48,746 nt of DNA, taken from assembly GCA_028700325.1 (NCBI GenBank), contig JAQVSV010000010.1:1-48746 (forward strand). The letters run 5' to 3'. Under the pieces are notes generated by a model. That model had not been told where the DNA came from and searched no databases. It was given only the letters and a program-made list of their open reading frames with translations. Source of the DNA: Elusimicrobiaceae bacterium (GTDB lineage Bacteria; Elusimicrobiota; Elusimicrobia; Elusimicrobiales; Elusimicrobiaceae). Positions 7,346 through 32,015 of the stretch are shown piece by piece (position 1 is the first letter of the stretch; each line of letters opens with the position of its first letter). A program made the position numbers and the translations under genes.

Positions 7346-9865
7346 TCAACTCTTGTATCTGCAGGTCAGTCCTATCTTGGCGCGCACTTCGGCGGAAAGC
7401 ATTTTACAGGTCGTATTGAGTTTGCCGTTTAATCCGGTCGCCACCGATGTTTCGGCCTCGATTTTCTTGTTAAAAGCGCCGGACTCGATGCGCCGACCTT
7501 CCCTCACAAGCCCTTTCATAAACAGCAGCGTGGGCTCCTTGGTTTTATCCTGAATCTGCGTCAGCATCGTGGGATAATCGGCTTTCATCGGCAGAATATT
7601 GACCAGCCCGCCCTTGCCGAAAAGCACATTGTTGGCGGCCTGCTCGGTGCCATCCACATAATTGACGCAGCCGATAAGCGAGCTGCATTCCTTGGACGCA
7701 ACATCCTCGGCCGTGAGAATATTAAACGCCGCTTCCATGGTTTCCGCGGTGGGATTGGCCTGCAGTTCGGTCAGCTTGGCTGAAACGTCGGCAAGCTTGG
7801 CGGAGAATTCCTCGTTACGCTGCTCTAGTTTCGTTTTCGAAGTGGTCACGTTATCAATCAGCAGCTGCTGCTCGTTGAGGATCCTGGCCTCCAGATCCTG
7901 CTGGGCCGCCGTCTTCGCCAGCTGGATCTGCCGGTTGATAGCGCCTACCTCGCCGGATAAGAAAGTATAGGCGTTGACCACATTATTGCCGCTGGTGGAA
8001 ATGGAAATGGTTTCCAGGTAATCCTTGTTCCGATCAAGCGTGCCGGCGAAAGAATCGCCGTTGGCGTTAACTTTCTCGTATTTGGCGATCAGCTTGGTTT
8101 CCGACTCGGTCATCTTGGGAATAGCCGTATCCTGCCAGCCCTTTATGCCGGTCCCGACTTCTTCGATCTCTTTGGTAAGGCCCTTGCTGGCATTGGTGTA
8201 TTTGTTCACAACCGACTTGGACTGCGACACAAACGGCCGCACCGCCGCAACTTTCTGTGACGGATCCGTCGCAGCCTGCATCCCCGTCAGCGCCGTCTGC
8301 TTGCTGGCCGACAAAGTGGTTCTGTCGCCCGGAGCATTTTCCCGCAGCTGTTTCACTATCTCCTGCGCCGCGCCGGTGTAGGTGCCGGTATCGGGCGTGA
8401 TATCGTCATCGTCATTGTCATTATCATCATTGCCGCCCGGCGAAGGTTTGGGGTTAAGTTCGGACTCAGGAACAACCGAACCGCGGCGTTCCTTGCACGA
8501 CTTCTTAAACTCGCCGATTTTTTTATCGTCGCTCATTTTGCGGATAGCGTCATCTATTGTTATAAGGTTGCCGTCCGGCCCTTTGCAGACCAGCCATTTC
8601 GGTTTATCATTGGCGTCTTCAGGATTGAGAATATCTTTGACAAAATCAGTGATTTTCTCCGCAACGGGGGTCGCCGCCGCGGTGATCATCATCTGTGGCA
8701 ACTGGACAGACAGGAACTGTTCCATGGCGAGTTTGTTCTGCACTTTGGCCTGCTTGGCCATAAACTCCAGTTCCAGTTCCTTTTCAGCGCGTTTCTCGGC
8801 CATTTTCTGGGCCGTGGACTGCTGCCGGCTTACCGTGGTTTTGCTGCCGGAACCGCTTGCGCTGCCCGCCTTCTTTGCGGATTTGCCGCCGCCGCCCAGC
8901 GAACTGCCGGACAAACCGCCGGTGTAACTTGACGCCTTGGAAGCCTTGTCGGCCGCGGCCGTGGCAGATCCGGCGTTCATTATATCGGCGACGTCGTTTG
9001 ACTGGGCTTTCAGCGCCTCATACGCGTCGGCGCTGCTTTTGTTGCTGCGGGAAGAAGTGCCGGAAAACCCTTTCATCGCGATCGGGTTGACCATATCCGA
9101 CGACGCGATCTTCGACGGCGCGCTGCCGGCCGTGCCGGTTATTTTTCCGTTGTTGATCTGGCCGGTGATTCCACCGCTGCCGCCGGCGCTCACCGCGCCC
9201 AGCCCGCGCACCGCACCGTTAAGGCGCGGAATATTCGGCGCGGATATCACTTCCGAAACCGCCTGCGCCGCCATGGGGGCCGCCGCGGTTATGGTATCGC
9301 GGAAATCGCGAGTGTCCTGCGGAGGAGGCGTATACTCGGGCGCGCTCGCTTCGGGTTCCGGTTTCTTTTCCTCCTGTCCGAGAATCAGCGAAAGCGGATC
9401 CCGCACGCTTAACGGAGTGATCGTTTCGCCTCCGATTCCGGTGCCGCCCGGCGCAAATCCGTTCAAGCCCGGCTCAAACAGTTCCCCGCCTGCCTTTGAC
9501 GCGTAAAACCCCGGCTTGCCCGCGCCGCCGCTGTCTTCCGCGCTGCCGGACGACATGTAATGCGCACTTATCGGCAAGACCGCCACCGTGGCCAGCCCCG
9601 CCAGCAGAAGACTCAGGTCTTTGGTTGAAAGTTTTTTAACCCGGCCCAGCATGCCCGCCAGATTGAACTTCCCCCCGAACTTGCTGCCGGTTGACGAAGA
9701 CGTGCTTTTCAGTTTCGGTATCTTCGCAAGAATGGATTCCGTCCTGCGCGTTGATTTTTTCGCCTCGCTCTTCTTGCGGACATTGAGCATGCTGCCCTCT
9801 GTGTTTCCCACAAGGCTTATCGGCGGCAAACTTTGATCGGTGCTTTTTATCTTGCGCTTTAACAT
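7346..9865 (-). CDS. P8: large Ala/Ser-rich membrane-anchored coiled-coil protein, unknown function
   Basis: 839 residues, no recognised domain. A basic cytosolic N-terminus of about 80 residues contains MLGRVKK just before a single membrane helix (about 84-103), like the L-L/F-G-x-K motif of P1-P5 and P7. The extracytoplasmic part holds a Pro/Glu stretch, the shared NIPRL motif (about residue 215), Gly/Ser-rich linkers, a charged helix (AEKRAEKELELEFMAKQ), an Asp-rich patch (NDDNDNDDDD), a long coiled-coil region (about 560-720) and a Cys-containing C-terminus ending TCRYKS. Six Cys are visible (CKG, SCKE, ECSS, GCV, TTC, LTC), so disulphides are possible. The ATG has GGGAGGGG four bases upstream. 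It has its own promoter and terminator, so it is a single-gene unit. It is the most coiled-coil-rich member of the array. Function unknown; an envelope-spanning structural role is inference. Confidence 0.85.
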   Translation of the reverse strand: MLKRKIKSTDQSLPPISLVGNTEGSMLNVRKKSEAKKSTRRTESILAKIPKLKSTSSSTGSKFGGKFNLAGMLGRVKKLSTKDLSLLLAGLATVAVLPISAHYMSSGSAEDSGGAGKPGFYASKAGGELFEPGLNGFAPGGTGIGGETITPLSVRDPLSLILGQEEKKPEPEASAPEYTPPPQDTRDFRDTITAAAPMAAQAVSEVISAPNIPRLNGAVRGLGAVSAGGSGGITGQINNGKITGTAGSAPSKIASSDMVNPIAMKGFSGTSSRSNKSSADAYEALKAQSNDVADIMNAGSATAAADKASKASSYTGGLSGSSLGGGGKSAKKAGSASGSGSKTTVSRQQSTAQKMAEKRAEKELELEFMAKQAKVQNKLAMEQFLSVQLPQMMITAAATPVAEKITDFVKDILNPEDANDKPKWLVCKGPDGNLITIDDAIRKMSDDKKIGEFKKSCKERRGSVVPESELNPKPSPGGNDDNDNDDDDITPDTGTYTGAAQEIVKQLRENAPGDRTTLSASKQTALTGMQAATDPSQKVAAVRPFVSQSKSVVNKYTNASKGLTKEIEEVGTGIKGWQDTAIPKMTESETKLIAKYEKVNANGDSFAGTLDRNKDYLETISISTSGNNVVNAYTFLSGEVGAINRQIQLAKTAAQQDLEARILNEQQLLIDNVTTSKTKLEQRNEEFSAKLADVSAKLTELQANPTAETMEAAFNILTAEDVASKECSSLIGCVNYVDGTEQAANNVLFGKGGLVNILPMKADYPTMLTQIQDKTKEPTLLFMKGLVREGRRIESGAFNKKIEAETSVATGLNGKLNTTCKMLSAEVRAKIGLTCRYKS

Positions 9866-10095
9866 AACCCCTCCCGCGCCCTATCGCGTGCCCTTTCGCA
9901 TCCGAACCACACTGCCACGCGTTTTCGATTAATTTATGCGCCGGCAAGACGGAAATATTTTTCCCTGACATTCCTGCCGGACGCGAAACCCTGACGCAAC
10001 ACGCTAAACCTATATATGACAGTCCTGCCCGCGAGCAGACCTCATATAACTGCAATAGTCATTCCCGTCACACTCTGTATTGCGCCCTACAGTGG
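9866..10095 (-). promoter_or_regulatory. Long 5' leader of P8
   Basis: About 225 nt lie between the predicted P8 transcription start and the ATG. I see no gene or recognisable riboswitch in it. The leader resembles those of P1 and P6 in length and includes GCGAAAGGGC, also present in the P1 leader. Confidence 0.4.
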
Positions 10096-10124
10096 AGTCT
10101 ACAACTAATGGGGAAGGGCGGCAA
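10096..10124 (-). promoter_or_regulatory. Promoter of P8 (TTGCCG-17-TAGACT)
   Basis: Minus-strand -35 TTGCCG and -10 TAGACT separated by exactly 17 bases. The -10 hexamer and spacing are identical to those of the P1 and P6 promoters. A perfect 9-bp inverted repeat lies just upstream. Confidence 0.6.
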
Positions 10125-10132
10125 GGGACAGT

Positions 10133-10154
10133 GGGCCTATGCCCTCATAGGCCC
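10133..10154. promoter_or_regulatory. Inverted repeat upstream of the P8 promoter (candidate operator)
   Basis: Perfect 9-bp arms GGGCCTATG / CATAGGCCC around a 4-base centre, 8 bases upstream of the P8 -35 element. The position suits an activator or repressor site. It has no T-run, so it is not a typical terminator. Confidence 0.35.
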
Positions 10155-10223
10155 TAAGGCCTATATTCATCCGCGCAAATACCAGCAATCCCTGCCGTGC
10201 CTGCATCCGGCGCCGGCGGAGCT

Positions 10224-10424
10224 TCACGCGCTTTTGCCGGCGCACATGATGCGGACAGCCAGCACCCCGGCCAATAGCAAAGCGACACGGACAATTCCCG
10301 CCACGACTTTTTGTGCGGATGATGACTCTGCCCGGCTGCGATTCTCCCTCTTCATTATTCCAACGCACCGGCTGAAATCCGATCCGGCAAGCGCAGCAAG
10401 GCCAATACGCAATGCCGCTTTCAT
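10224..10424 (-). CDS. Possible small membrane protein (doubtful)
   Basis: A 66-residue frame starting ATG (MKAALRIGLAAL) with a C-terminal hydrophobic helix (VVAGIVRVALLLAGVLAV) lies in the 590-base gap between the P7 stop and the P8 -10 element. The upstream GGTG is a poor ribosome site, and composition is not better than chance for this GC content. It could be a small membrane peptide or the remnant of an array gene. The rest of the gap holds only the promoter, the inverted repeat and the P8 leader. Confidence 0.2.
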   Translation of the reverse strand: MKAALRIGLAALAGSDFSRCVGIMKRENRSRAESSSAQKVVAGIVRVALLLAGVLAVRIMCAGKSA

Positions 10425-10518
10425 CACACCGACAAGCGCAACCAAACCACCGCGTTCCGCAAAAACAACGTGCAAAAACCCGGAACGGCATGCAGCAAGG
10501 CAGGATTGAAATTGCAGG

Positions 10519-11931
10519 TCAGGGTTCGGGGTCCGCGGTATAACCCCGTTCCGGTTGGGGAGAAGAGGCGAACCCCGACAGGATATCAGAAGACGCCGCG
10601 GGAGCCGGAAGCAGCGCAGTCCTGAGGCTTTCTTCCGCGATTGATTTAAGCGCTTCTATATAAGCCGGTTCCACTATCAGCTGCGGTTGCCGGACCAGCG
10701 CGACCGTGCCGCCGCTCAGAAAAATTCCGGCGCCCAAAAGCGCCGCGCCCGCTAGCGAAAAAAACGGCGCGGACAAACCGGACAGGCTTAACGCCAGCAA
10801 CGCCGCGCCGACAGCAATAGCCAGCGCGCCGGCTGAAAATTTCATTCCGCACAACATCCTGCTCTCGGGTTTTTTTGACAGCATCGAATATGCCGAACAG
10901 GAAACCGACAGCCCGCCGGACAGGCACGCCCGCGCAACCTCCTGCGCATGCTCGTTGCGTTCGGCGCAAAGTTTATTGAGCCGGGCGATTCCGGCGTTCC
11001 ACGACAGCAGGCTTTCTCCGCAGCAGGAAGGTTCCCTGCCGAGCATTTCCGCGATTATGGAAATTTCGGTATCAATGCCGGAAATCACGGCGTTATGTTT
11101 TACGGAAGCGGCATCACATGTTTTGCCAAGCTCGCCGCCATCCCCCCGGTCGGCAAAATACTGGCCGGAACCGGACGCAGCCAGCTGATTTTCAGTCATC
11201 AGAACCGGCACGGTATAGTTCATCTTGACATCCGGCGTTTTTTCGCCGTCAAATCCGGAAGACCGGGCTGTTGTTATAGCTCCGGCGCCTTTCTTGGGCG
11301 CGGCGGAGGTGGCGGCATAGCTTTTGGTCAGCTGCCGCAGGTTGTCAAGCCTCAGCTTGCTGTTTCTGAGAACGGCGCGCTGATACATGAAAGTCTGCTG
11401 CATGTTCGGCGAAACGGGCACTTTGGTCACCGGGCCTTTCCGGCCGGCCTCTTTAACCTCCGGCATTTCGTAAGCCGTCTGCCGGAGAACCCGGTCGGCC
11501 GTGCCGCCGGAAGCGCGGGCCCGGCCGTCCGCGGGCAAAATCACTGTCGTCCCTTTCCTTCGCAAAAACGACACGGCGGGACTTGGCGGGCCTTTGCTTT
11601 TCTGAAACCCTGCCAGCGGCAGCCCCGAAACACGATCCTTGAGCGCCTCCCGCAACATCCGCGCGCCGCCAACCACAGGCAGATTGGCGCGCTGAACCGC
11701 GCCCATGGTTGATTCCGTCTGACGGAGCTGCCGTTTAGGAATATCGGTCATCATCGCGCGGCTCTGGTCAGGCGCAAAAAACCGCTGCGTCACGCCGGAA
11801 AACGCGAGTCCGGCAAATATCGCCGCGCCCAGCGCGAAAAACGTCGCCAGCTGCCTTTTTTGCGTGCCGAACAGAATCAGAAAAAAATTCCGGTGTTTCC
11901 ACCCGCCACGGCCAGAAAATTCGTTTGCCAT
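10519..11931 (-). CDS. P7: membrane-anchored protein of the low-complexity array, unknown function
   Basis: 470 residues. The N-terminus reads FFLILFGTQKRQ directly before the first membrane helix (about 27-47), a good match to the juxtamembrane L-[LF]-G-x-K motif of P1-P5. The middle is basic and helical rather than Gly-rich and contains a Cys cluster (REPSCCGESLL, NKLCAERNE, ARACLSGGLSVSCS). Two close hydrophobic helices follow (ALAIAVGAALLALSLSG and SLAGAALLGAGIFLSGG), then RQPQLIVEPAYIEAL and a Pro/Ala-rich tail. The helical pair followed by Q-x-Q-L-x-V recalls the QGQ domain of P1-P4. I chose the ATG with GGAG five bases upstream; an in-frame GTG lies 42 nt earlier. I found no clear promoter, yet P5 ends with a terminator, so P7 probably has its own start signal between about 11940 and 12360. 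Function unknown. Confidence 0.8.
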   Translation of the reverse strand: MANEFSGRGGWKHRNFFLILFGTQKRQLATFFALGAAIFAGLAFSGVTQRFFAPDQSRAMMTDIPKRQLRQTESTMGAVQRANLPVVGGARMLREALKDRVSGLPLAGFQKSKGPPSPAVSFLRRKGTTVILPADGRARASGGTADRVLRQTAYEMPEVKEAGRKGPVTKVPVSPNMQQTFMYQRAVLRNSKLRLDNLRQLTKSYAATSAAPKKGAGAITTARSSGFDGEKTPDVKMNYTVPVLMTENQLAASGSGQYFADRGDGGELGKTCDAASVKHNAVISGIDTEISIIAEMLGREPSCCGESLLSWNAGIARLNKLCAERNEHAQEVARACLSGGLSVSCSAYSMLSKKPESRMLCGMKFSAGALAIAVGAALLALSLSGLSAPFFSLAGAALLGAGIFLSGGTVALVRQPQLIVEPAYIEALKSIAEESLRTALLPAPAASSDILSGFASSPQPERGYTADPEP

Positions 11932-12097
11932 ATCCGCTCCGCCATCGTCGCCGGGACTACCCCCGTTTTTCACATATCAGGCGCGAGTCAGGCGTTACCT
12001 GATTCCACCGCCCGCAAAGATCAACCGCGCGCTCCCCGGCCCGCCACAAGACAATTTTACATTATTTAAAGTGCGCGAAATGCGCTTTCCGGTTTTT

Positions 12098-12324
12098 CAG
12101 GCCGCAGGACTCCACTCCGGCGGCATGAACTTCCCCCGGCTGTGCCATTGGCCTGCCGGCTGTTATTACGCTTTACCGGCAAGCCGGGGGGGTTCTTTTG
12201 CTCCAGACTTCATTTGCCCCGCTTGCGCAGGGTTACACACTCCAGCCCCTGCTTGAGTTATGCCATATTGGCAGTCATTATGCCGTGCCGGCCAGCGCCG
12301 GGTTTTTGTGTGCGGAATTTATAA
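12098..12324. repeat. Dispersed intergenic repeat, copy B (longest)
   Basis: The longest of three copies. Its left end CAGGCCGCAGGAC matches copy A, its left-central module (12134-12180) matches copy C, and its right core (12248-12324) matches copy A at about 80%. It lies just past the P5 terminator. The remaining bases between P7 and P5 hold nothing I can identify besides this repeat and the terminator. Confidence 0.65.
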
Positions 12325-12363
12325 ACAGCAACCGCCATTGCCGTCAGAAAAAAACCTGGCGAT

Positions 12364-12408
12364 AAAAAAAGCTTGTCCGGAGCGGACATTCTTATCCGCC
12401 CCGGACAA
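12364..12408 (-). terminator. Rho-independent terminator after P5
   Basis: Arms TTGTCCGG + GCGGA and TCCGC + CCGGACAA (one A/C mismatch) around an 8-base loop, followed on the minus strand by seven T. It lies about 72 nt after the P5 stop and ends the P6-P3-P4-P5 unit. Confidence 0.85.
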
Positions 12409-12479
12409 ACCGACCTCCCGTCCCTATCCAGCCAACCCGTTACCGCCCGGCGCCGCAGGGACCTTCCCCCGGAAACCGA

Positions 12480-14453
12480 TCAGGAAAGAAAGAGCAATAA
12501 CAAATTCCAGGCTATCCGCAGCGCATCCATAACAAGGCCCAAGAAACTGTCTCCGTCGGAAGCCGCCTGCACGGCCGCGGCAATCTTTGACACCATGGTG
12601 CTTTCCGTCAGCTGGCCCTGCTGATACTTTAACTGCCCGGCTATCGTATACAGCTGGCGCGCTATATCCCTGAGATCACGCCTCAACTCGGCAATCCGCC
12701 TGATTATCGGAGTCGGATCAACATCATCCGGAAGAGCCGCTAAAATAGCTTCCAATATAACAATCTGGACGATGTCGCTTAACGCACGCCAGGCAAGACT
12801 GTTAGCCAACCGCAATGATTCTATCCACGGCGCAGATATATGCGCCCCGTCATTGCCCGGAGGCACTCCGCCCACCACCGCTGATTTGTCGAAGTCATCA
12901 TCAAGCTCGAACGGCGTATCGCCAATAACGTCGCCGGAGGTTTCCTGCCCGGCAAAACAATCTTCGGCACCCTGCCTGACAGATTCAAGACTGCTGGTAT
13001 CAATATTCGCGCATTTGTCCGCAACACATGCCGCCTGAGCCAGCGCGCCTTCCCCCTCGCATGTCGTATCGGTTTGCTGAACGGGCACCGGTGTCGGATC
13101 CTTCTCCTTTGGAACTTCAGGCATGATAATCGGAACTATCTCGGAATCGGTTCCGGTTCCGGTGTTGGTGTCGGTCCAGGTATTGGTCAAAGTATCAGTC
13201 CAAGTATTGGTATTGGTGCCGGTGTTGGTATCCGTACCGGTATCCGTACCGGTATTCGTGCCGGTATTCGTGCCGGTGTTGGTATTGGTGCCGGTATCCG
13301 TGCCGGTATTGGTATCAGTTCCACCGCCACCTCCGCCGCCACCACCTCCGCCACCGTCGTCACCACCTCCGCCGCCGCCACCTCCGCCATTGTCACCGCC
13401 GCCGCTTCCGCCGCCATTGCCGCCACCGCTGCCATCGTCATCGCCATCTGACCCGCCGGATCCGCCATTTGCTCCATCGGAACCGTCGGAACCGTTCGAT
13501 CCGTCAGAACCACTCCCTGAAGAACTGCCGCCCGAGATACCGCTATGGCCGCCGCCACCCACTCTCCCGCTCACCGCACCCGACCCGCCTGACCCGCCGG
13601 GGCCTACGCGTCTGGAAGCGCCCCCGCCGCCTGGAATAGGCATGATAATGGAGTCCGGATTTACCACTATGGGCCCCACCGATGCGTCTTGTGAAGGATT
13701 CCCGCTGATATCGTTGCTAAGATTGACGCTGCCGCCGCTTCCCCCGCCGCCCGTAAATCTGCCGGAAGTGCTGTTGCCCGAACCCAGCACATCGCTGTTC
13801 ATCCGGGCCAGCATGCCGAGCGAATTGGCTCCGGTTCCTGTACGGCCATTGCTTTGCTGTGCGATATCGTCCAGCAGTTTGTCCCGGCCGCCAGTTTCGG
13901 ATAAACCGCCTTTGCCATCCCTGCCGGAACCATCGCCGTTGTTATAACCGCGCCCGCTTCGGCGCGACAGCCAGTTCTCATCTTCAATTTCGCCATTGCC
14001 GTTAAGCCGGGCGGTGAACCGCGTTTTCTTCAATTCGTTCGCCCAATAGCCCATATTGCCGGGTATTCTGAGCGCCGCCAGCCCGCCCGGAGAATTGGGA
14101 TCGGTCCCGGTCAGCACAGCCCCTATCACCGCCAATACTACCGCCGCCATCAGTAATCCCAGCAGCGCGCCCAGTTTCCGCCCCAAAAGAGAGCCGAGCC
14201 GGACTCCGAGCATCCGCTCAAGCCCGCCAAAACCGAATAGCGAAGACAGCATTTCACCCAGAAACTTCGCCGGCGCCGAGAACAGCCGGCTCAGCCAGCC
14301 GCCCGCTGACCCCAGCCCTGACCCCGCAAAGGAACCACCCGTTCCGCCGCTGCCAAACAGCACAGGCGGAAGCTTTTTCTTTTCTTTGTCTTCCTCTTTT
14401 TTATCCGGCACACGCGAGGTATAAAGATGCGAAGTATCGTTATCTCTTTCCAT
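12480..14453 (-). CDS. P5: low-complexity membrane-anchored protein with Thr/Gly repeat stalk
   Basis: 657 residues. Residues 1-30 (MERDNDTSHL, then EKKKLPPVLFGSGG) align with the starts of P4 and P1. SRLF occurs near residue 55. LGSLLGRKLG precedes the membrane helix (about 92-116). A Gly/Ser-rich region follows, then an extreme poly-Gly/Asp tract and a Thr-Asn-Thr-Gly/Asp repeat of about 60 residues. After a segment with four Cys (TTCEGEG, AACVADKC, DCFAG), the C-terminus is helical (IVQIVILEAILAALP; RRDLRDIARQLYTIAGQL) and ends in a hydrophobic tail WNLLLLFLS. The start was placed by homology to P1/P4; two in-frame ATGs upstream (24 and 51 nt) are possible. The 125-nt gap from P4 contains a hairpin. 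Last gene of its transcript. Function unknown; the Thr/Gly tract looks like an extended stalk. Confidence 0.8.
   Translation of the reverse strand: MERDNDTSHLYTSRVPDKKEEDKEKKKLPPVLFGSGGTGGSFAGSGLGSAGGWLSRLFSAPAKFLGEMLSSLFGFGGLERMLGVRLGSLLGRKLGALLGLLMAAVVLAVIGAVLTGTDPNSPGGLAALRIPGNMGYWANELKKTRFTARLNGNGEIEDENWLSRRSGRGYNNGDGSGRDGKGGLSETGGRDKLLDDIAQQSNGRTGTGANSLGMLARMNSDVLGSGNSTSGRFTGGGGSGGSVNLSNDISGNPSQDASVGPIVVNPDSIIMPIPGGGGASRRVGPGGSGGSGAVSGRVGGGGHSGISGGSSSGSGSDGSNGSDGSDGANGGSGGSDGDDDGSGGGNGGGSGGGDNGGGGGGGGGDDGGGGGGGGGGGGTDTNTGTDTGTNTNTGTNTGTNTGTDTGTDTNTGTNTNTWTDTLTNTWTDTNTGTGTDSEIVPIIMPEVPKEKDPTPVPVQQTDTTCEGEGALAQAACVADKCANIDTSSLESVRQGAEDCFAGQETSGDVIGDTPFELDDDFDKSAVVGGVPPGNDGAHISAPWIESLRLANSLAWRALSDIVQIVILEAILAALPDDVDPTPIIRRIAELRRDLRDIARQLYTIAGQLKYQQGQLTESTMVSKIAAAVQAASDGDSFLGLVMDALRIAWNLLLLFLS
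13146..13320. repeat. In-gene short tandem repeat encoding Thr-Asn-Thr-Gly/Asp
   Basis: Degenerate repeat of 6- and 12-base units (GGTATTGGTGCC, GGTATCCGTACC and variants on the plus strand) inside P5. It encodes alternating TNTG and TDTG. In-frame units could change copy number without breaking the gene. Confidence 0.8.
13321..13440. repeat. In-gene poly-glycine tract
   Basis: GGC/GGT/GGA codon runs inside P5 encode stretches of 9-12 Gly broken by Asp, Asn and Ser. The run is contiguous with the Thr repeat, forming one low-complexity stalk. Confidence 0.8.
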
Positions 14454-14484
14454 ATGGCCGCCCGCCTTAAATAGCATATCCGTC

Positions 14485-14540
14485 CCGCCGGAGAGAGCTG
14501 CCATGCAAACCTGCCACGCGGCAACTTCCCTCTCCGGCGG
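14485..14540 (-). other. Intergenic hairpin between P4 and P5
   Basis: An 11-bp perfect stem (CCGCCGGAGAG and its complement) with a 34-base loop lies in the 125-nt gap upstream of P5. There is no T-run. It may be a processing, stability or attenuation element tuning P5 relative to P4. Confidence 0.5.
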
Positions 14541-14578
14541 AACCGGACTAAAACAACTTACCTGCCTGCATCACCTAA

Positions 14579-16396
14579 TCAAAGCAAATATCCGCTTTCC
14601 CGTAAGATCTTCAAATCCTCTTCACTTTGTTCAAAGTACTTGCTCGCATTTGCATCAACCTTGGTATCAGTGCTGGTAGCAATACTGGTTGGAGCGACGG
14701 TATCAACAGCGGTATTCACGTCAGAGGCTGTGCCTGTGTCGGCAATAATACCGAGCGATTCAAGCTTTTCCGAGAATGAAGAGCTCCCGGTGCCCGAACT
14801 CATGAACAGGCCGGCCGCACCCACGGCAAGCGCCAAAAACCCTATAATCATACCTGCTGCGACAGCACCACCAGTCCCGAAAAACGCAAGGCCCGTGCCA
14901 ATGGCAAGTATGGCACCGCACCCTATGACTAACGAACCCAGCAATGCCTGACCCTGTTCCGCTATAATCAACGCCCCTGTAACCGCCAGAATACCGATAC
15001 AAACAGCCAGGCCGGCCAAAATAGCAAGAACAGCCGCCGCGGCCGCGGGAGCTAACGGACCCGCCGGCAACAGCAACGCCGCAGCCGACAAAGCTATCAG
15101 CAATGCCGAACCGATGGCAAGCGTCGTCGCCGCTGTTTTCAGATAACTGTCAAGCGGGCTGGCGACTTCTTCGGTAGTGGTGACATTCGGAGTCTGCGTA
15201 CTTGTCGTGGTGCCATCCGAGGTCGTAGCAGCGGTAGGCGTGACGGTATTGATAGTAGTATCGGCTTTGGTAGACTCGGGTATATTCCCGGTTCCGCCGG
15301 AATTTCCATCGCTGTTGTTTGCGCCGGGAATCACAGGATCGTTGCTGTCAATCGAACCGCTGGGCGCATTGCCCCCGTCCCAGGCAACATCCCCCGTACC
15401 TTTTTTGGCCATTGCGTCACTGCTGACTTTTGCCGCGCCCATATGCTCCTGCACCGCATTGGCCTGAGAAATCGCGCCGCGCGAATTGCGGGTGGGAGTT
15501 TTTACGCCGCCGCGCGAAGTCGCTTTCCGTCCGCCGATGCCGGTCGCTTTGCCGAACGTCGGCTTCTGGAATGAAGCCATCAGGTTGGACATGCCGCTGT
15601 CAGCGCCGCCGGAGCCGGGCTTGGCCGTGCCAAGCGAGCCGGAGGAGGAACTGCCTCCGCCGGACGCGCTTCCCAGTCCGCTGAGCGCACCCATGCCGCT
15701 GCCGCCCGCGCCAGCGCCGCCGCCCGCGCCATTAAGCAGGTTTCCCAGCCCGTCCGCGGCCGCATTCGCGCCCGCAACTTTAGGATCAGCCGCTCCGGCA
15801 TCCGCGTCCGAAGTTTCAGCTTCGGAAAGGGTTTCAGCGTCAGCGTCCTCATCAAGGTTGCTTTCTTCGCCGTTGCCGGATTTCCGGGCGTTGGCGTCAG
15901 AAAACATCGCAAGGGAACTCTGCCCCGCGCCGGACCGTTTCTCGCGCGAGCCGGACGAATAGTCGTCGCCCCTGGCGAAATTGACAAGCGAGGGTGACCT
16001 GAGCGCGCTGTTGCCTTTGCTGTCTTTCACCATATAGGCTCCGCCGAGCGCAAGCAGACCCGCCGAAAGAGCCAGCGCGGCGCCAATGGCAAGTTTGGAG
16101 CCGAACAGCGAGGCCATGAACCCGCCGGAGCCGCCAAAACCGCTGCCGAACAGGCCGGTTACAGCCCGGCCGAACAGCCCGCCGCTGCCGCCCATGCCGC
16201 CGCCGAGCAGCCCGCCTCCGCCCGAGCCTTCAAGCGCGGTGCCCGTAAGCGACGCGCCGTTTTTGCCGCCCATAAGCCAGGGAGGCAACAGTTTTTTCTT
16301 CTTCTCCTCCTGCTGATCGGGAGAAGTGACTTTCAGTTCAACCGTCGCGCGCTTGATTTGCGGCCCGGTGATTTTGCTGGTATCATTATCTTTCAT
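14579..16396 (-). CDS. P4: low-complexity membrane protein with C-terminal QGQ domain, paralogue of P1
   Basis: 605 residues. N-terminus MKDNDTSKITG, then EEKKKKLLPPWLMGG, corresponding to EKKGLPPWLLGG of P1. Gly-rich FG repeats lead to MASLFGSK directly before a membrane helix (about 102-123). The next region has SLAMFSDANA and EESNLDED, also seen in P1 (SLQMLSDRNF; KESNLDDEE). A long Gly/Ser stretch and a Thr-rich linker (TTTSTQTPNVTTTEE) precede a C-terminal domain of about four hydrophobic helices with IIAEQGQALLG between helices two and three, then SSGTGSSSFSEKLESLGI, nearly identical in P1. The ATG has GGGGA seven bases upstream. It follows P3 by 57 nt in the P6-P3-P4-P5 transcript. The Gly/Ser/Thr region is probably extracytoplasmic between two membrane domains. 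Function unknown. Confidence 0.85.
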   Translation of the reverse strand: MKDNDTSKITGPQIKRATVELKVTSPDQQEEKKKKLLPPWLMGGKNGASLTGTALEGSGGGGLLGGGMGGSGGLFGRAVTGLFGSGFGGSGGFMASLFGSKLAIGAALALSAGLLALGGAYMVKDSKGNSALRSPSLVNFARGDDYSSGSREKRSGAGQSSLAMFSDANARKSGNGEESNLDEDADAETLSEAETSDADAGAADPKVAGANAAADGLGNLLNGAGGGAGAGGSGMGALSGLGSASGGGSSSSGSLGTAKPGSGGADSGMSNLMASFQKPTFGKATGIGGRKATSRGGVKTPTRNSRGAISQANAVQEHMGAAKVSSDAMAKKGTGDVAWDGGNAPSGSIDSNDPVIPGANNSDGNSGGTGNIPESTKADTTINTVTPTAATTSDGTTTSTQTPNVTTTEEVASPLDSYLKTAATTLAIGSALLIALSAAALLLPAGPLAPAAAAAVLAILAGLAVCIGILAVTGALIIAEQGQALLGSLVIGCGAILAIGTGLAFFGTGGAVAAGMIIGFLALAVGAAGLFMSSGTGSSSFSEKLESLGIIADTGTASDVNTAVDTVAPTSIATSTDTKVDANASKYFEQSEEDLKILRESGYLL

Positions 16397-16453
16397 AACA
16401 TTCCCCTATTACGGCTCGGCGACACAGAATAAATACTGAAAAACAGCATCCCG

Positions 16454-18019
16454 TCATCCCAACAATTTATAAGTGGTATTGCCAATGATATTCCCGCTTG
16501 AGTCCAGCACGTCGGCAACCATTTCGCCGGTATTGGAAGCCGAAGCCGCCGCTTCGCCGGCGGCCGGGCCGGGAGGCAGCGCAAGCTGCGCGCTCCTGCC
16601 GCCGTCAGTCAGCGCAAGCTGACCGCTCGTCGTGTTTGCCGCGGGAGCCGCGGTTTGCGCGACAGCCTGCCCGGAACCGGCGTTTTCAAGAGCCGTCATC
16701 GTTTTGGCGGCTGCTGCGGTTTCCGCCTCTATCTTCTGCTGGTCCAGCTGGGTTTCATAACCGACCATGGCCTTATAGGCGGAGAAAGTCGTTATACCGC
16801 CTATTGCCGTGAGCATAAGGCCCTGCACAAGCTGGCCCTGCGTAGTCATGATCAGAATACCTAAAAGGGTCATCACCGCGGCGCAGGCAAGCGCTATTTT
16901 CGCCAGTATGATCGCGGTGGGAAGCGAAGCCGGAGTTTTGGCCAGCTTGCTCGCGATAAAAAGCAGCAGCATGGAAGCCACCATCAGCGCGTAGGAAGCG
17001 ATTTCTATCCATTTCCAGGGGGAATCATTCTCTTCGGCTTCCGTTGTTTCGGGCGTGGCGGTGGAACCGGCAGGATTGCCGAGATTGATGGAATCCTTCG
17101 GATTAAGAGCGGGGTCGGATGACCCGGACCCGCTGGACATGCCCGCCCCGTTGGGATTTACTTCGCCGCTTTTTCCGCTGTTTTCATAGGCGTCCACCAG
17201 CGCGCCGCGCCGGGAATCAGCCGAGGGCCCGCCGCCGCTTAAAGTAGCGTTCACCGCCGCCGCCTGATTGCGCGCGCCGGACAGCGAACTGGTTTTCCGG
17301 CTGGAACCTGACAGTCCGGCACGGGCCGCGCTCTTCAGCCCGTTCGCGGAGCCGGTTCTCACGGCTCCCTCGGACAAACCGCCGGCCGCGCCGGACCGCT
17401 GCCCCAAAGCCGAAGACGAACCGCCGCCGCTCGTGCTGCTTCCGCCGGAACCGCTCCCTACCCCCGCAACGGCGGACAGCCGCGGAATAACAGCCGCGGG
17501 CGCTTCAGCCGCCGCGTCGGCTTTCATCTCCTCGCTTTCGGCGGAAGAAGCCTGCTCTTCCGCTCCGGCCGCCCCGGCCGGAGCGTCTTCGGAAAAAACT
17601 TCGTCGCCCTGCTGTCCTTCTTTAAGATAATCAAGCGAGGACCGGCTGTCCACCACATTCGACTTTGCGGCACGGTTGCTCTCCGCGTCGCTTACCAGCG
17701 CGTCATAATAAGGATCGCTGAAAAGGCTGTGCGCCTCCGCGCCGGGAGAATTGTTGCTCATCACGTTATACACCAGACCCGCTCCGGCAACCAGCGTCAT
17801 CCCGCCTACCGCCAGCCCCGCAATACCGGCCTTTGTCCCCAGCAAAGCGGACAGAACTCCCCCTGAAGAGCTTCCTCCGAACAAGCTTCCGGCCGACGCC
17901 GGCACGGCTTCCCCGCCCGCCCCCACCGCGCCGTTTCCGCGCAGCAGGCGGGAAAGGTAAGGGATCAGCCCTTTTCTTTCTTTCTTGTCCTGCGCCTGTT
18001 CTATATTCGGCATCATCAT
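16454..18019 (-). CDS. P3: low-complexity membrane protein with C-terminal QGQ domain, paralogue of P2
   Basis: 521 residues, closely related to P2. Shared blocks in order: DKKERKGLIPYLSRLLRG (11-28), LSALLGTKAGIAGL before the membrane helix (about 64-85), LFSDPYYDALVSDAESNR (99-116), KSNVVDSRSSLDY (119-131), an acidic Ala-rich stretch, VIPRL, a Gly/Ser linker, SGARNQAAAV, SADSRRGALVDAYEN and DSINLGNP. The C-terminal domain has about four hydrophobic helices with TQGQLVQGLML, an IEAETAAAAKTMTALENAG helix and an Ala-rich tail. DNA blocks are also nearly identical to P2, for example CGTCATAATAAGGATCGCTG on the plus strand, which implies recent duplication or gene conversion. The start follows the P6 stop by 18 nt with AAGG nearby, so P6 and P3 are co-transcribed. 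Function unknown. Confidence 0.87.
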   Translation of the reverse strand: MMMPNIEQAQDKKERKGLIPYLSRLLRGNGAVGAGGEAVPASAGSLFGGSSSGGVLSALLGTKAGIAGLAVGGMTLVAGAGLVYNVMSNNSPGAEAHSLFSDPYYDALVSDAESNRAAKSNVVDSRSSLDYLKEGQQGDEVFSEDAPAGAAGAEEQASSAESEEMKADAAAEAPAAVIPRLSAVAGVGSGSGGSSTSGGGSSSALGQRSGAAGGLSEGAVRTGSANGLKSAARAGLSGSSRKTSSLSGARNQAAAVNATLSGGGPSADSRRGALVDAYENSGKSGEVNPNGAGMSSGSGSSDPALNPKDSINLGNPAGSTATPETTEAEENDSPWKWIEIASYALMVASMLLLFIASKLAKTPASLPTAIILAKIALACAAVMTLLGILIMTTQGQLVQGLMLTAIGGITTFSAYKAMVGYETQLDQQKIEAETAAAAKTMTALENAGSGQAVAQTAAPAANTTSGQLALTDGGRSAQLALPPGPAAGEAAASASNTGEMVADVLDSSGNIIGNTTYKLLG

Positions 18020-18037
18020 AACCTTGCTCCGGACACT

Positions 18038-19057
18038 TCAAAATTTAAGGCTGGACGACAAATTTGAAAATATTATGGAAGCCACCGTCACTCCCATCGA
18101 ACCGAAAAGCGCGCCCATAGCCACTGTCAGGCCGATCTGCAAAAGCATCTTCATCATCTGGGTTTTCGTATCCTCTTCGGAAGTGGATTCCTCGGTGGCC
18201 TCGGGAACGGTTGGATAGGTGATAGTCCTCACATTGCCCGTGGTGTCGTGATTGGTATTCAAACGGTCAGCACCCAGATCAGGCAGACGACTGATCCCGG
18301 ATTTTACAACCTCCACCCCGTCCATTGACACTTTAAGTTTGGGCGAACTGTCGCCAAACGCCGCGCCGGCGGCGGCAGCCATGGAAGCGACATTGCCGCT
18401 CTGGGCGGCGGCCGCGCTTAGCTGCACGGTCTTTTCAAGAGAGGACAGCGAGCGGTTGCCCGTGCCGGAACCGGCCGGCCCGCCCATTGAACCCGACCCG
18501 ACGGTCCCGCCGGGCGAAAACGCGCTTTTCTGGCTGGCCGAGGCGGTAACGCCTTTTGAGGCGCCCGCGCTGCCACTGCTGCTGCCGCCTCCGCCACCGC
18601 TCAAACCGCTGGACATGGCCTGCAGCTTGGCCTGCAATGCGGCCGCCAGGCCGCCCGCGCTGTAGTCAGCCGAAGCGCTTTTGCTGCTGCGCGGCGCGGA
18701 CACTCCGCGCCCGCCCGAAGAAGCCGCCGCACCGGCTGACGCGCTGGCCGAGCTTGCTCCGACCCCGTTATATTGGAACATCAGCCCTTCGTCGCCGGTG
18801 GGCATATACAGGCGCGAGGAAGCCGAGTCGCCGTTCTCGCCGTCAATCGCTCCGCCCGGCGCAAGGCCTTCATACACGCTGTCCCACGATTTCATGCTGG
18901 CGACCGCGCCTTTCGACTTCCCGCCATTATAATAATCGCTGGTGGCGGTATTTGTAAGCATCGGATAAGAGATCCACAGCCCTGACAGGAACAGCAATAT
19001 GCCGCCGATAACGGCATATTGTTTAGCCTGATTCCTTGTCTGGGTTGCGAAATTCAT
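18038..19057 (-). CDS. P6: Ala/Gly/Ser-rich bitopic membrane protein, first gene of the P6-P3-P4-P5 unit
   Basis: 339 residues. A short basic N-terminus (MNFATQTRNQAKQ) leads straight into a membrane helix (about 14-34), without the L-F-G-x-K motif of its neighbours. SWDSVYEGLAPGG, a long Ser/Gly/Ala-rich region (ASAGAAASSGG; LSGGGGGSSSG), an Ala-rich helix (TVQLSAAAAQSGNVASMAAA) and SPKLKVSMDGVEVVKSG follow. A C-terminal helix (MLLQIGLTVAMGALFGSMGV, about 307-335) closes the protein. I chose the ATG with GGGGGAG five bases upstream over an in-frame start 93 nt earlier that lies within the leader. A strong promoter lies about 170 nt upstream. Small bitopic relative or partner of the larger array proteins; function unknown. 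Confidence 0.82.
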   Translation of the reverse strand: MNFATQTRNQAKQYAVIGGILLFLSGLWISYPMLTNTATSDYYNGGKSKGAVASMKSWDSVYEGLAPGGAIDGENGDSASSRLYMPTGDEGLMFQYNGVGASSASASAGAAASSGGRGVSAPRSSKSASADYSAGGLAAALQAKLQAMSSGLSGGGGGSSSGSAGASKGVTASASQKSAFSPGGTVGSGSMGGPAGSGTGNRSLSSLEKTVQLSAAAAQSGNVASMAAAAGAAFGDSSPKLKVSMDGVEVVKSGISRLPDLGADRLNTNHDTTGNVRTITYPTVPEATEESTSEEDTKTQMMKMLLQIGLTVAMGALFGSMGVTVASIIFSNLSSSLKF

Positions 19058-19228
19058 AACTCCCCCGCTGACATAAAAAACCAATCCGCGCTCAGGGACC
19101 CAGCCGCTGCCTGCTCCCTGAAGAGCTTTGATGCCTGTTCCGGTTTTCAAAAAACAAACGGCGCATCCTTTCTCGCCGGGCGAATAAATGCTTCCGTATT
19201 GCTATTCGCCCCCGCAGGATACACGCCT

Positions 19229-19257
19229 AGTCTAACCCGGCGACCGCGGTTTGTCAA
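19229..19257 (-). promoter_or_regulatory. Promoter of the P6-P3-P4-P5 unit (TTGACA-17-TAGACT)
   Basis: Consensus -35 TTGACA, 17-base spacer, -10 TAGACT on the minus strand. It gives a leader of about 165 nt whose start contains GTATCCTGCGGGG, matched by GTACCCTGCGGGG at the same position after the P1 promoter. Best sigma70-type promoter in the array. Confidence 0.85.
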
Positions 19258-19371
19258 GACCCAAAAGCCCTCAAAACGCCTTCTCAAACCCGTCGGGCCG
19301 AACACTGTTCCCGGTCAACGAAATCCGGCCCGGCAACATTTGACACAAACTTCCCGGATAATGCGCTTTGA

Positions 19372-19404
19372 GCGGGCCGGCCCGGTTCTACCGGGCCGGC
19401 CCGC
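19372..19404 (-). terminator. Strong hairpin after P2, probable transcription end
   Basis: Perfect 14-bp GC-only stem (GCGGGCCGGCCCGG and its complement) with a 5-base loop, 8 nt after the P2 stop. It lacks a T-run, so it is either an atypical terminator or a 3' stability element. The P6 promoter is about 115 nt further on. Confidence 0.65.
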
Positions 19405-19412
19405 CATGCACA

Positions 19413-20870
19413 TCAGAAACCAATACCGGTAAACCCTTTATCCAGCCAGGCTTCCACACCGGAAAGCGCTCCTCCGGAATGCAGCCCGCCGGCCATGAAC
19501 AGCGACATCCCTGAAAAAACCATGGAAACAACCGAACAAATCGCAATAAGCGTTTTGCTCCCCTTGGAAAAAGCGTCAAGATCTTTCAACCCGGTCATGG
19601 CCTTGAACCCGGCAACGGCGGTAAGCAAACCGGACGCGGCCATAGCCAGACCTTCCAGCCGCTGACCCTGCGCAAACATCAGGTAAAGCCCGTATGCCAT
19701 CACGGCCAGACCGATAACCATGACAACTTTCGCGATAATCTGCGAAACAGCCAGACTAAGCAGTTTCGGAGCGAATGTGATCAGCAGCAGCAAAGCATTG
19801 GCCGCAATCAGCGCGATTTTCGCTATCTGGCTTATCTTGGCCCACGGAGTAGTGCTTTCTTCCGATTCGGTAGTATCGGCCGTTGAACCGCTGCCGCCGG
19901 TGGGATTGCCAAGATTGGTGGAATCCTTCGGCATGGCGGCCGGATCCGAAGCGCCTGACCCGCTGGAAAGGCCCGCGCCGCCCGATGCCACTTCACCGCT
20001 CTTGTCATTATTTTCATAAGCGTCCACCAGCGCGCCGCGCCGCGAATCGGCGGAAGAACCGGCGCCGCCCAAAGTCGTCCCTACCGCACGCGCCTGATTG
20101 CGCGCGCCGGAAAGTGCGCCGGCTTTTCTGGTACCCGCTGTCCGGCCCGCCCGCACCGAACTTGAAAACGCGCCGGATTGTCCCGTCCGCACCGCGCCGG
20201 CGGAAGTCGAGCCGCCGCGGGCGGTCGCGCCGGAGCCGATCGCTCCGCTGGAACTGCTGCCCCCTGATCCGCCAGAACTGCCGCCAAGCCCCATGCCGGA
20301 CGTAGCCGCCAGGCGCGGGATTGAAGCCGCCGGCGATGCCGCGGAGGCGTCAGCTTTCGTTTCCTCGGTATCGGAAGCGGGCGCGGCGCCCGCGTCATCA
20401 ACAGCGGCTTCGTCAGCCACATCGTCCGACGCGTTCGCCTCGTTGAAATAGTCAAGCGAGGATTTGCTGTCCACCACATTCGATTTGGCCATGCGGTTGC
20501 TTTGCGCGTCGCTCACCAGCGCGTCATAATAAGGATCGCTGAAAAGACCGCGCGCGGCATCGCCGGAAGAATTGTTGCGCATCACGTTATAGGCAAGACC
20601 AAGCCCGGCGAGCAATGTCATCGCCCCGATAGTCAGCCCCGCTATGCCCGCCTTGGTTCCCAGCAGCGTAGCCAGAAACCCGCCGCCGAACGGCGAACCG
20701 CCGCCGAGCAGCCCGCCGAAAAGGCCCCGTCCGGCCGCACCGGTGACACCGGTCGCGGCTTCGCCCGAGCCCACAGCCCCGCTCCCTTTGAACAAGCGGG
20801 ACAGATAAGGAATAAGACCTTTCCTTTCTTTTTTATCTTTCTGCTGAACTGTCACATGATGCACATTCAT
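19413..20870 (-). CDS. P2: low-complexity membrane protein with C-terminal QGQ domain, paralogue of P3
   Basis: 485 residues. DKKERKGLIPYLSRLFKG (12-29), Gly-rich GLLGGGSPFGGG, then LATLLGTKAGIAGL and a membrane helix (about 74-95). The block LFSDPYYDALVSDAQSNR (109-126) and KSNVVDSKSSLDYF are almost identical to P3. An acidic Ala-rich segment, SIPRL, a Gly/Ser linker, SGARNQARAV, SADSRRGALVDAYEN and DSTNLGNP follow. The C-terminal domain has about four hydrophobic helices with FAQGQRLEGLAM and ends GFTGIGF. The ATG follows GGAAGGTT. It is the second gene of the P1-P2 unit, separated from P1 by a 210-nt gap without a clear promoter. Predicted topology: cytosolic N-terminus, long extracytoplasmic loop, C-terminal membrane domain. 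Function unknown. Confidence 0.87.
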   Translation of the reverse strand: MNVHHVTVQQKDKKERKGLIPYLSRLFKGSGAVGSGEAATGVTGAAGRGLFGGLLGGGSPFGGGFLATLLGTKAGIAGLTIGAMTLLAGLGLAYNVMRNNSSGDAARGLFSDPYYDALVSDAQSNRMAKSNVVDSKSSLDYFNEANASDDVADEAAVDDAGAAPASDTEETKADASAASPAASIPRLAATSGMGLGGSSGGSGGSSSSGAIGSGATARGGSTSAGAVRTGQSGAFSSSVRAGRTAGTRKAGALSGARNQARAVGTTLGGAGSSADSRRGALVDAYENNDKSGEVASGGAGLSSGSGASDPAAMPKDSTNLGNPTGGSGSTADTTESEESTTPWAKISQIAKIALIAANALLLLITFAPKLLSLAVSQIIAKVVMVIGLAVMAYGLYLMFAQGQRLEGLAMAASGLLTAVAGFKAMTGLKDLDAFSKGSKTLIAICSVVSMVFSGMSLFMAGGLHSGGALSGVEAWLDKGFTGIGF

Positions 20871-20995
20871 AACCTTCCTCCCTAAGCAGTATCAGGCGGG
20901 GCGCCGGACACAAGAACAAAAAAACCTGTCCATACCGCTTTTTTTAGTCCCTATTGCCGACATCGCAACGTCATCACAAAATACACTATTTGCTC

Positions 20996-21025
20996 TCAGA
21001 GACCCACTCGCAACTTGCTCTCTGA
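20996..21025 (-). other. Weak hairpin in the P1-P2 gap
   Basis: A 7-bp stem (TCAGAGA / TCTCTGA) with a 16-base loop and no T-run. The rest of the 210-nt gap holds nothing I recognise; a possible TTGCGA...TAAAAA pair near 20950 is too poor to call a promoter. Confidence 0.25.
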
Positions 21026-21080
21026 AGGGCCGAACCGCAACAGACTGTTCAAACATACTCTTCTCATCTATACAAAACTA

Positions 21081-23021
21081 TCATCCGGTAGTACTGTCAC
21101 TGCCATCCGTTTTCATCACTGACATCACGGATGAATTGGAAGTAAAATCTACAGGAGTGGTTGACGCAGGCGTGGCATTTCCGTTAATACCCAGGGAATC
21201 CAGCTTTTCCGTGCAGGTGGATCCGCCTGCACCGGAAGTGAGAAGGAAACCGGTGGCTCCCAGAATAGCTCCGCCGATAGCAAGCGCGACAACCGGCCAG
21301 GCTATGGGACAAAGCGCCGCCAGGCTCAGTCCAATCGCGCCGTCCCTTATAAAGGTGCCGACAACAAGCTGGCCCTGTTCATTTATGATCTGGTTGCCGA
21401 TATAAGCCGCTCCCATGCATAACGCAAAAGCCGCCGCGCGCAAAGCTATAACCAGCCAGGGAATGACACAGACAAGCGCAGCGAGCAGCAGGGCGCAGGC
21501 AAGAATCATAAACCCGCATGCCCAGTTTATAAGCCGTTCCAGCTGCACGTTTGCCTGAACCGCAGCCTCTTTTTCTTCCGGAATAATATTGGTCGAGCAA
21601 TCCTCTTTCGCCTTACCATACTCGTCAATACATGTGGTGGTGTCGGTATTAAGATCGGTCGTCCTGCTGGTGACATTGCTGGTTACAACGCTGGTCAGAA
21701 TGCTTGTGGTATTGACGGTTACGACACTTGTAGTATTGACGGTCGTAACGCTCGTAGTGTTGCCGGTCGCGCCGCTGCCGCCTGAAGTTGTCCCGCCCGA
21801 CGGCGTGACTATCGGCGTTTCGGAGCCGGGTTTTTGAGGATCGCCGGACCAGGCGGAATCGGAACCCGAACGCCGGTCCTGCTCATTCTCGGAATCCAGC
21901 ACCGCGGCTGTCATGCCTTTATTAATCGCCGCGGCCTGCGAATGCGCCTTGCCCGAACTGCCGCGGCTGTCGCCTGAAAGCGCCGCTGCCGAAAAACGCG
22001 AGGCTTTTCTGAGCCCGGACACCTTGCCAAGACTCAGGCCGCCGGTGGACAGACCTGCGGAACCGGGCAAAGCCGCCGAACCGGAATCCCCGCTCCAGCC
22101 GGCTCCCCGTGAACTGTTCCCGATGCTTCCCGTCCCGCCGCCCATGCCGCCGGTACTGCCGCCGCTGCCGCTGCCCCCGAGATAACTGTATTTGGAGCCG
22201 CTAAGCACATCGTTAAGGCGCGGCAGGGAAGCCGGGCCGGCATCGCCTGCGCTGCCGGCCGGTTTGCCGGCCGCTTTGGCTTCATCGGCGATTTCGGGCA
22301 TTTCCTCATCATCAAGATTGGATTCTTTTCTCTCATCCCCGTCAACAGCGAAATTTCTGTCCGACAGCATCTGCAGGGAGGACTTGTTATTGGCCATACG
22401 GTCAACTTCAGGTATATAGGGCTGGCTGGTGTTCATGCTCACAAGCCCTGACCGGCCGACAGCTTCCTCGTTTTTCCCGAACCAGCCGGACTTGGCCAGC
22501 AGCAGACCCGCTCCCGCCACACCGGCGGCAAGCAGAGCCATCGCGGCAAGCGCCCCGATTTTTCCGCCGAGCAGCCCGCCGCCCGCGCCGAACGCGCCGA
22601 ACAGTCCGCTTCCGCGCGAACCGGCTCCGGCCAGACCCCGCACCCCTGCCGCGCCGCGCCCGCCTCCGAACAGCGATGAAAACAGGCGGCTGAAAAACCC
22701 GCCTCCTTCACCCGCCGCGCCGCCAAGACCGCGGGCGCCGGTTGCAAGCCGCGAACCGGCCGCCAGATCCTCGGCACCGGCCGCTCCGCCAGACAACCCC
22801 CGTCCGCCTTTGCCAAAAGAAGAAAAAAGCCGGCTGAAAAATCCGCCTTCCTGAGCCGCGCCGCCGCGCACTCCCACGCCAGCCGCAGAAGAAGCGTTTT
22901 CGCCTCCCAAAAGCCACGGCGGCAGCCCCTTTTTTTCCTTTTTCTTCTTGTCTTCGGCGTTTTCGAAAACGGGTACCGTTATTTTGATTACCGAATCGGT
23001 CTGTTTGTTATTGTCGTTCAT
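21081..23021 (-). CDS. P1: low-complexity membrane protein with C-terminal QGQ domain, paralogue of P4
   Basis: 646 residues. A Lys-rich N-terminus (DKKKKEKKGLPPWLLGG, 24-40) is followed by a duplicated module, GGFFSRLFSS near residues 59 and 107, separated by Gly/Ala-rich sequence. GGLLGGKIGAL precedes the membrane helix (about 155-177). IPEVDRMANNKSSLQMLSDR and KESNLDDEE correspond to P4, then SLPRL, a Gly/Ser linker with SYLGGSGSGG, GKAHSQAAAIN and a Thr/Val/Asn repeat (TTSVVTVN type). The C-terminal domain has about four hydrophobic helices with IINEQGQLVVG and ends in SGAGGSTCTEKLDSLGI, nearly matching P4. I chose the ATG aligning with the P4 start; a TTG 36 nt earlier is possible, and the ribosome site (GGTGG) is weak. 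First gene of its unit, promoter about 200 nt upstream. Function unknown. Confidence 0.85.
   Translation of the reverse strand: MNDNNKQTDSVIKITVPVFENAEDKKKKEKKGLPPWLLGGENASSAAGVGVRGGAAQEGGFFSRLFSSFGKGGRGLSGGAAGAEDLAAGSRLATGARGLGGAAGEGGGFFSRLFSSLFGGGRGAAGVRGLAGAGSRGSGLFGAFGAGGGLLGGKIGALAAMALLAAGVAGAGLLLAKSGWFGKNEEAVGRSGLVSMNTSQPYIPEVDRMANNKSSLQMLSDRNFAVDGDERKESNLDDEEMPEIADEAKAAGKPAGSAGDAGPASLPRLNDVLSGSKYSYLGGSGSGGSTGGMGGGTGSIGNSSRGAGWSGDSGSAALPGSAGLSTGGLSLGKVSGLRKASRFSAAALSGDSRGSSGKAHSQAAAINKGMTAAVLDSENEQDRRSGSDSAWSGDPQKPGSETPIVTPSGGTTSGGSGATGNTTSVTTVNTTSVVTVNTTSILTSVVTSNVTSRTTDLNTDTTTCIDEYGKAKEDCSTNIIPEEKEAAVQANVQLERLINWACGFMILACALLLAALVCVIPWLVIALRAAAFALCMGAAYIGNQIINEQGQLVVGTFIRDGAIGLSLAALCPIAWPVVALAIGGAILGATGFLLTSGAGGSTCTEKLDSLGINGNATPASTTPVDFTSNSSVMSVMKTDGSDSTTG
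21655..21765. repeat. In-gene degenerate repeat encoding Thr-Thr-Ser-Val / Thr-Val-Asn
   Basis: Alternating units encode TTVNTTSV, TVNTTSI and TSVVTSNVTS inside P1. The position just before the C-terminal membrane domain matches the Thr-rich linker of P4 and the Thr/Gly stalk of P5. Confidence 0.65.
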
Positions 23022-25399: not shown

Positions 25400-25618
25400 C
25401 TAACTGCCTGCCGGCACTATCAGACCGACCAGCGTGAAAAACCCGCCCCGCAGAATATCGCTTGCCGAGGTGAAAATAGTAACCGCCAAAGCGACAACCA
25501 TCGCTATCAAAAGCAGATACTCTATAGCCGTCTGCCCGCGCCGGCACACAGCCCGCCGGGCAAATAAGCCCGCGACACCCGCCAGACTCCGCGCCGTTCT
25601 TAAAAACGCCATATCCAT
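25400..25618 (-). CDS. Flp-type pilin with long leader (third pilin)
   Basis: 72 residues. RRG followed by QTAIEYLLLIAMVVALAV is a canonical Flp prepilin site (Glu+5, Tyr+6) and hydrophobic N-terminal helix. The leader is about 28 residues (MDMAFLRTARSLAG...), about twice that of the other two pilins, and contains its own hydrophobic patch, so the true start could be later, though no in-frame start codon with a ribosome site is obvious. Its position next to the TadG-like and TadE genes, about 16 kb from the main pilin, suggests a minor pilin. Confidence 0.7.
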   Translation of the reverse strand: MDMAFLRTARSLAGVAGLFARRAVCRRGQTAIEYLLLIAMVVALAVTIFTSASDILRGGFFTLVGLIVPAGS

Positions 25619-27547: not shown

Positions 27548-27557
27548 AGTCAGTTCC

Positions 27558-31999: not shown

Positions 32000-32015
32000 T
32001 GTTATCGCGGATGCG

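Follow-up and report, generated by a model that had tools for sequence, protein, structure and literature searches.

The window analysed here, a stretch of 48,746 nucleotides, lies on contig 10 of an Elusimicrobiota genome of 2.2 Mb. Eight adjacent genes, P1–P8, lie on its minus strand at 7346–23021 and encode products of ~339–839 residues, their starts being picked mechanically. An earlier note on this DNA had claimed eight consecutive open reading frames rich in Gly, Ala, Ser and Thr, and all eight exist, with a share of these residues of 38–52% per protein vs 25–33% in six neighbouring proteins of the window. Its label of low complexity suits this composition but not several stretches that are strongly conserved across families. 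Each of P1–P8 has a hydrophobic helix close to the N-terminus and most have extra C-terminal ones; these come from a simple hydropathy scan, so the topology described below is a predicted one.

P4 (16454–18019, 521 aa) is the type member of a duplicated family. P2 (19413–20870, 485 aa) is its paralogue with 53% identity, and P1 (21081–23021, 646 aa) and P5 (14579–16396, 605 aa) belong to the same P4/P1 family. P1 runs from a basic LPPWL start through a Gly-rich linker, LLGGK with the membrane helix, an acidic stretch, LPRL and a Gly/Ser region to hydrophobic C-terminal helices that carry an EQGQ motif. P6 (12480–14453, ~657 aa) has an LPPVL start and LLGRK with a helix, followed by Gly repeats and Thr-Asn-Thr-Gly repeats, and its remainder is unique.

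The other three genes are of different types. P3 (18038–19057, 339 aa) has a single N-terminal helix, a Gly/Ser-rich, putatively periplasmic region akin to that of the P4 family and a C-terminal hydrophobic helix. P7 (10519–11931, ~470 aa, with a possible alternative upstream GTG start at 11973) has an N-terminal helix, a Cys-rich helical domain and C-terminal hydrophobic helices. Several Cys columns are invariant or nearly so in the alignment of its family, which suits an oxidising periplasm. P8 (7346–9865, 839 aa) has a basic start, one membrane helix and then the conserved ITPLSVRDPLSLILG block, a PxxP stretch, IPRL and a conserved Ala/Ser helix region, and its C-terminal part is predicted to be coiled-coil-like.

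The strict motif L[LF]G.K stands at the first membrane helix in five of the eight proteins (P1 LLGGK, P2 LLGTK, P4 LLGTK, P5 LFGSK and P6 LLGRK). When the same residues were shuffled within the stretch of at most 35 residues around the first helix, a mean of 0.13 proteins carried the motif and none of 20000 shuffles reached five. In relatives, the motif column reads LFATKAG or LLAGKAG, and its Lys is invariant in one P4-family alignment. P7 LFGTQK aligns in its own family with LLLLFRGRAKY, and P8 MLGRVK in its own with IMERLKNLSKKD; hence neither is homologous to L[LF]GxK and neither is to be counted.

The motif that the earlier note had drawn through the array therefore holds for those five genes and fails for P3, P7 and P8. 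The note placed an LLGTK in the third gene, but that motif is in the fourth, P4, and P3 has none of this kind. Of the other short motifs it listed, [IL]PRL is found in P1, P2, P4 and P8 and is absent from P5. The basic starts of the LPPxL or GLIPYLSRL type are present as described, but in the set of P1, P2, P4, P5 and P6.

By sequence comparison, P1, P2, P4 and P5 are homologous, P3 has their periplasmic part in common and P6 their motif-plus-helix block. A profile built only from relatives retrieves P1, P2, P4 and P5. Whole-protein profiles miss P6, so it was rejected as a full member of the P4/P1 family; its motif-helix block alone matches the P4/P1 profile, with an E of 8.5e-5 and a score of 36, while 60 shuffles give at most 22. 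The profile-profile probabilities are 100% for P4–P1, 96% for P3–P4, 85% for P0–P3 (P0 being an extra gene of relatives, described below) and 71% for the C-terminal parts of P7 and P1, but shared composition can raise such values and the weaker ones are leads only. Profile-profile comparison found no kinship of P8 to the other array families, so P8 was dropped as their relative and stands apart.

None of P1–P8 is known to the protein-family libraries searched, which supports the earlier note's statement that no known family is recognisable. Pfam, NCBIfam, PHROGs and the anti-phage defence models of PADLOC gave no usable match for any of P1–P8, and no profile search assigned them to a known family. 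The weak matches to YtpI and CyanoTRADDas_TM are below the curated cut-off, and those to Gly-zipper and RNase_Y_N occur in just one or two of the proteins. The sequences of the P7 and P8 alignments gave nothing in Pfam beyond isolated weak matches, and profile searches of the PDB gave only coiled-coil or weak matches, none convincing. Among the Tad family models of Pfam and NCBIfam (TadE, RcpC/CpaB, secretin, T2SSE and T2SSF), none matched P1–P8.

Structure prediction points the same way. The AlphaFold model of P4 has a mean pLDDT of 57.5, with three long C-terminal helices at block pLDDT of mostly ~90–95 and the rest mostly of low confidence. That of a P7 relative (L041) has a mean of 58.3, with the helices of the Cys-rich domain at block pLDDT of ~83–97. 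Foldseek found no PDB match at E ≤ 0.001 for these two mostly low-confidence models. As the confident helices lie only near the C-terminus and Foldseek is empty, we claim no fold for P4 or the P7 relative.

Directly upstream of the array, and like it on the minus strand, lies a Tad locus in two parts. The nearest gene (23440–23988) encodes a TadE/TadF-like minor pilin, which matches the TadE model at E 0.0025, below Pfam's cut-off. The next (23985–25367) encodes a TadG-like minor pilin, so named by its position and pilin-like start since Pfam gave no match, and upstream of it is a small Flp-type pilin by sequence (25400–25618, with GQTAIEYLL). A regulator cluster (25671–33461) follows, with a LuxR-type response regulator, a receiver-histidine kinase, a dCache histidine kinase, CheY-like, OmpR-like and other members. 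The core tad genes (33497–42336) were identified by matches to Tad family models and comprise a TPR protein, tadC, tadB, a tadZ-tadA fusion, a secretin, cpaB/rcpC, TadE and two Flp-type pilins.

Some details of this locus may be recorded. Its three Flp-type pilin reading frames (25400–25618, 41885–42073 and 42148–42336, all on the minus strand) are split, as one adjoins the TadG-like gene and not the core tad genes. A second TadG-like gene elsewhere in the window genome (G000:C46:3184-4557) is 59% identical to that of the window. Within the regulator cluster, 29487–30938 on the minus strand encodes a protein whose start resembles a signal peptide and which contains a CPFG stretch; it is thioredoxin-like by eye, has no Pfam match and has a counterpart of 39% identity at the same place in the genome G003.

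We sampled 295 Elusimicrobiota genomes, mostly draft metagenome-assembled ones, whose contig breaks hide some linkage and may inflate its absence. Their families are coded f1–f14, with f1 being that of the window. The P8 profile matches 87 of the 295, all in the class Elusimicrobia, and has no match in the sampled genomes of other classes. These 87 comprise 45 genomes from family f2, which belongs to the window's order, 40 from elsewhere in the class and two from f1, namely the window genome and G003. Outside the phylum, the distribution rests on one pattern scan of public genomes, biased to f2-like P4, in which the named relatives are Elusimicrobia or unlabelled bins.

Wherever the genes are present, the order of P3, at least one P4/P1-type copy, P7 and P8 is kept, as read in 20 f2 loci and 20 others (19 of other families and one in G003), several of them incomplete. 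The array described by the earlier note is thus conserved in f2, f7 and f8, all of one class. The P8 tree agrees with taxonomy: f2, f7 and f8 each form one well-supported group and f1 a weak one. The tree and the distribution fit inheritance within the class and argue against recent mobility. The array is real and old.

Two further genes recur at its ends. P0, of ~400 aa with one helix, lies upstream of P3 in f2 (L031:10425-11669 on the plus strand and L030:12078-13328 on the minus strand). P9, a long protein whose start resembles a signal peptide and which has no Pfam match, recurs directly downstream of P8 in f7 and f8 (L123:4925-7567 on the minus strand, L122:11096-14503 on the plus strand and others), and it was not detected in the f1 and f2 genomes tested.

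The array is linked to the Tad minor pilins and regulators in distant genomes. TadG served as the marker in the 40 genomes with P8 that belong to neither f1 nor f2; in 14 of them it is on the same contig and strand, 10.98–28.2 kb upstream of P8. A simple binomial model with 40 independent genomes gives ~1e-22 for this, but kinship among the genomes means that this value overstates the independent evidence and that the linkage truly weighs far less. The f7 loci run from the regulators through TadG and TadF to the array as in the window, and the regulator cluster itself keeps the same order there and in G003. In G003, ~210 bases separate the end of tadF from a contig end, and on another contig the array runs towards the end, which fits the tadF-array linkage without proving it.

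The linkage is not universal. In almost every f2 genome, the array and TadG occupy separate contigs, and in G270 52 kb lie between them, so related arrays do not always lie near tad and the array can work from elsewhere. Tad without the array is widespread, including in the reduced-genome f1 genera and other classes; most sampled f1 genomes (1.1–1.8 Mb) keep TadG and TadZ-TadA and have no P8. A TadZ-TadA match is present in 83 of the 87 P8-bearing genomes, but co-occurrence says little as Tad is in ~80% of the sampled genomes (236 of 295). Hence the Tad link suggested by the earlier note has support from the gene order in the window and 14 other genomes, while the f2 arrays away from tad and the sister genera with tad and no array weigh against it.

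An ordered set that recurs and often adjoins pilus genes probably builds an undescribed envelope structure working with the pilus. Our favoured reading, at a probability of only about 0.42, is that P1–P8 form a single complex of the inner membrane and periplasm that is specific to the lineage and serves the Tad machine of the class Elusimicrobia as an accessory. That the products make up one multi-subunit assembly, as the earlier note proposed, is plausible. Judging from the anatomy, each subunit would have a short basic cytoplasmic N-terminus, pass once through the inner membrane close to that end and reach into the periplasm with a flexible Gly/Ala/Ser region that bears short conserved blocks. 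P1–P5 and P7 would re-enter the membrane via their C-terminal helices, and the duplicated P1, P2, P4 and P5 may be a repeated part of the complex. P7 would contribute a helical domain that disulfide bonds probably stabilise. P8 is the subunit detected most widely and may be the one that reaches furthest outwards, in the direction of the cell wall or outer membrane. The complex might then brace or gate the Tad machine across the envelope or couple it to surface sensing via the neighbouring kinases, as a scaffold working with Tad rather than a filament subunit.

The detached f2 arrays with their own upstream P0, the many genomes having tad without the array and the probably secreted P9 behind P8 in f7 and f8 would all suit a self-standing envelope complex of the class, for example for secretion, motility or cell-wall bracing, that shares the tad locus by chance in some lineages. 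Chance sits poorly with the same-strand TadG linkage in the window and 14 distant genomes and with the regulator order common to the window, the f7 loci and G003, and we hold this as a possible but somewhat less likely account. A bolder reading, which we consider rather unlikely, is an ancient class-specific envelope machine distinct from any secretion, pilus or motility system described so far, with the Tad locus as its home and an ability to run outside Tad. It would consist of tandemly duplicated multi-helix membrane subunits and the P3, P7 and P8 types. The composition could also mean membrane-anchored secreted or surface structural polymers, silk- or fibre-like and little constrained in sequence, and the Thr-Asn-Thr-Gly repeats of P6 agree with that. 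Blocks conserved across families (such as ITPLNxRDPxSLIMGPG of P8 and SSLDMF of the P4 family), the C-terminal multi-helix membrane parts and the fixed gene order make such polymers improbable.

Interchangeable tip complexes have been described for Tad pili (PMC12075869), and the array comes directly after the TadG and TadE/F-like minor pilins, as genes for further minor pilins or tip proteins might. By eye, however, P1–P8 show no prepilin-type start and no signature of pilin-type cleavage plus helix: their first helix starts at residue 16–157 and lacks a GxxxxE-type site. C-terminal membrane helices are present in several members and would be out of place in a filament subunit, so that a tip complex like that of Myxococcus Kil is very improbable. 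A run of unknown families could likewise come from a phage or mobile element. That origin is largely refuted and scarcely credible by now, given no PHROGs match, no P8 relative confirmed in 2.9 million viral contigs and the well-supported f2, f7 and f8 groups in the P8 tree.

The alignment subunits PilN/O/P and GspC/L/M have a short cytoplasmic start, one helix and a periplasmic part, and PilP has an RDPF motif. The array proteins resemble them in this general plan, and the RDP block after the P8 helix recalls RDPF as a lead only. They differ in that there is no profile match and no recognisable ferredoxin-like or HR domain, and most of them have C-terminal membrane helices. For the PilP, PilO and GspC domains in particular, neither Pfam nor the PDB sequences gave a match to P1–P8.

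Earlier work had already noted Tad systems in Elusimicrobia (PMC6668835). Recent work on Tad covers the filament, secretin, alignment and motor parts and finds that the systems vary in how the inner and outer complexes are connected, with CpaB, CpaC, CpaD and CpaI as the envelope parts in Caulobacter (PMC13170226). The array adjoins the core tad locus, directly downstream of the TadG and TadE/F-like pilins in the window and several families, but P1–P8 are unlike any Tad component in sequence and the Caulobacter parts are other proteins. Tad tips vary through minor pilins, and the Kil system of Myxococcus likewise extends its Tad locus by lineage-specific genes beside the minor pilins (PMC12075869). 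The Kil tips are pilins whereas P1–P8 are not pilin-like, as compared by gene setting and start only. Under our Tad-accessory reading, this would be a Tad locus with a new extension.

Much of the class Elusimicrobia, known mostly from uncultured genomes, thus has a set of unnamed families in a recurring order, located next to Tad or away from it. If it is a Tad accessory, the Tad machine would be enlarged by several dedicated membrane subunits, a concrete target for studies of pilus building and control. The sampled reduced-genome sister genera, with Tad and without the array, offer a natural comparison. The P3, P4/P1, P7 and P8 profiles allow annotation as families and not as low-complexity hypotheticals.

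One more gene recurs near the array. In f7 and f8, an FtsH-like membrane protease (AAA and M41) lies between TadF and P3, directly after TadG-TadF. As it is also beside TadG in f2 genomes that have the array elsewhere, we group it with the minor pilins and ruled it out as an array component. We did not find it in the window genome, which has only an FtsH of 39% identity elsewhere. An example is L151:9264-10973 on the minus strand, similar places are occupied in f7, f8, f2, f5 and f21, and the housekeeping-type FtsH is only ~40% identical to it.
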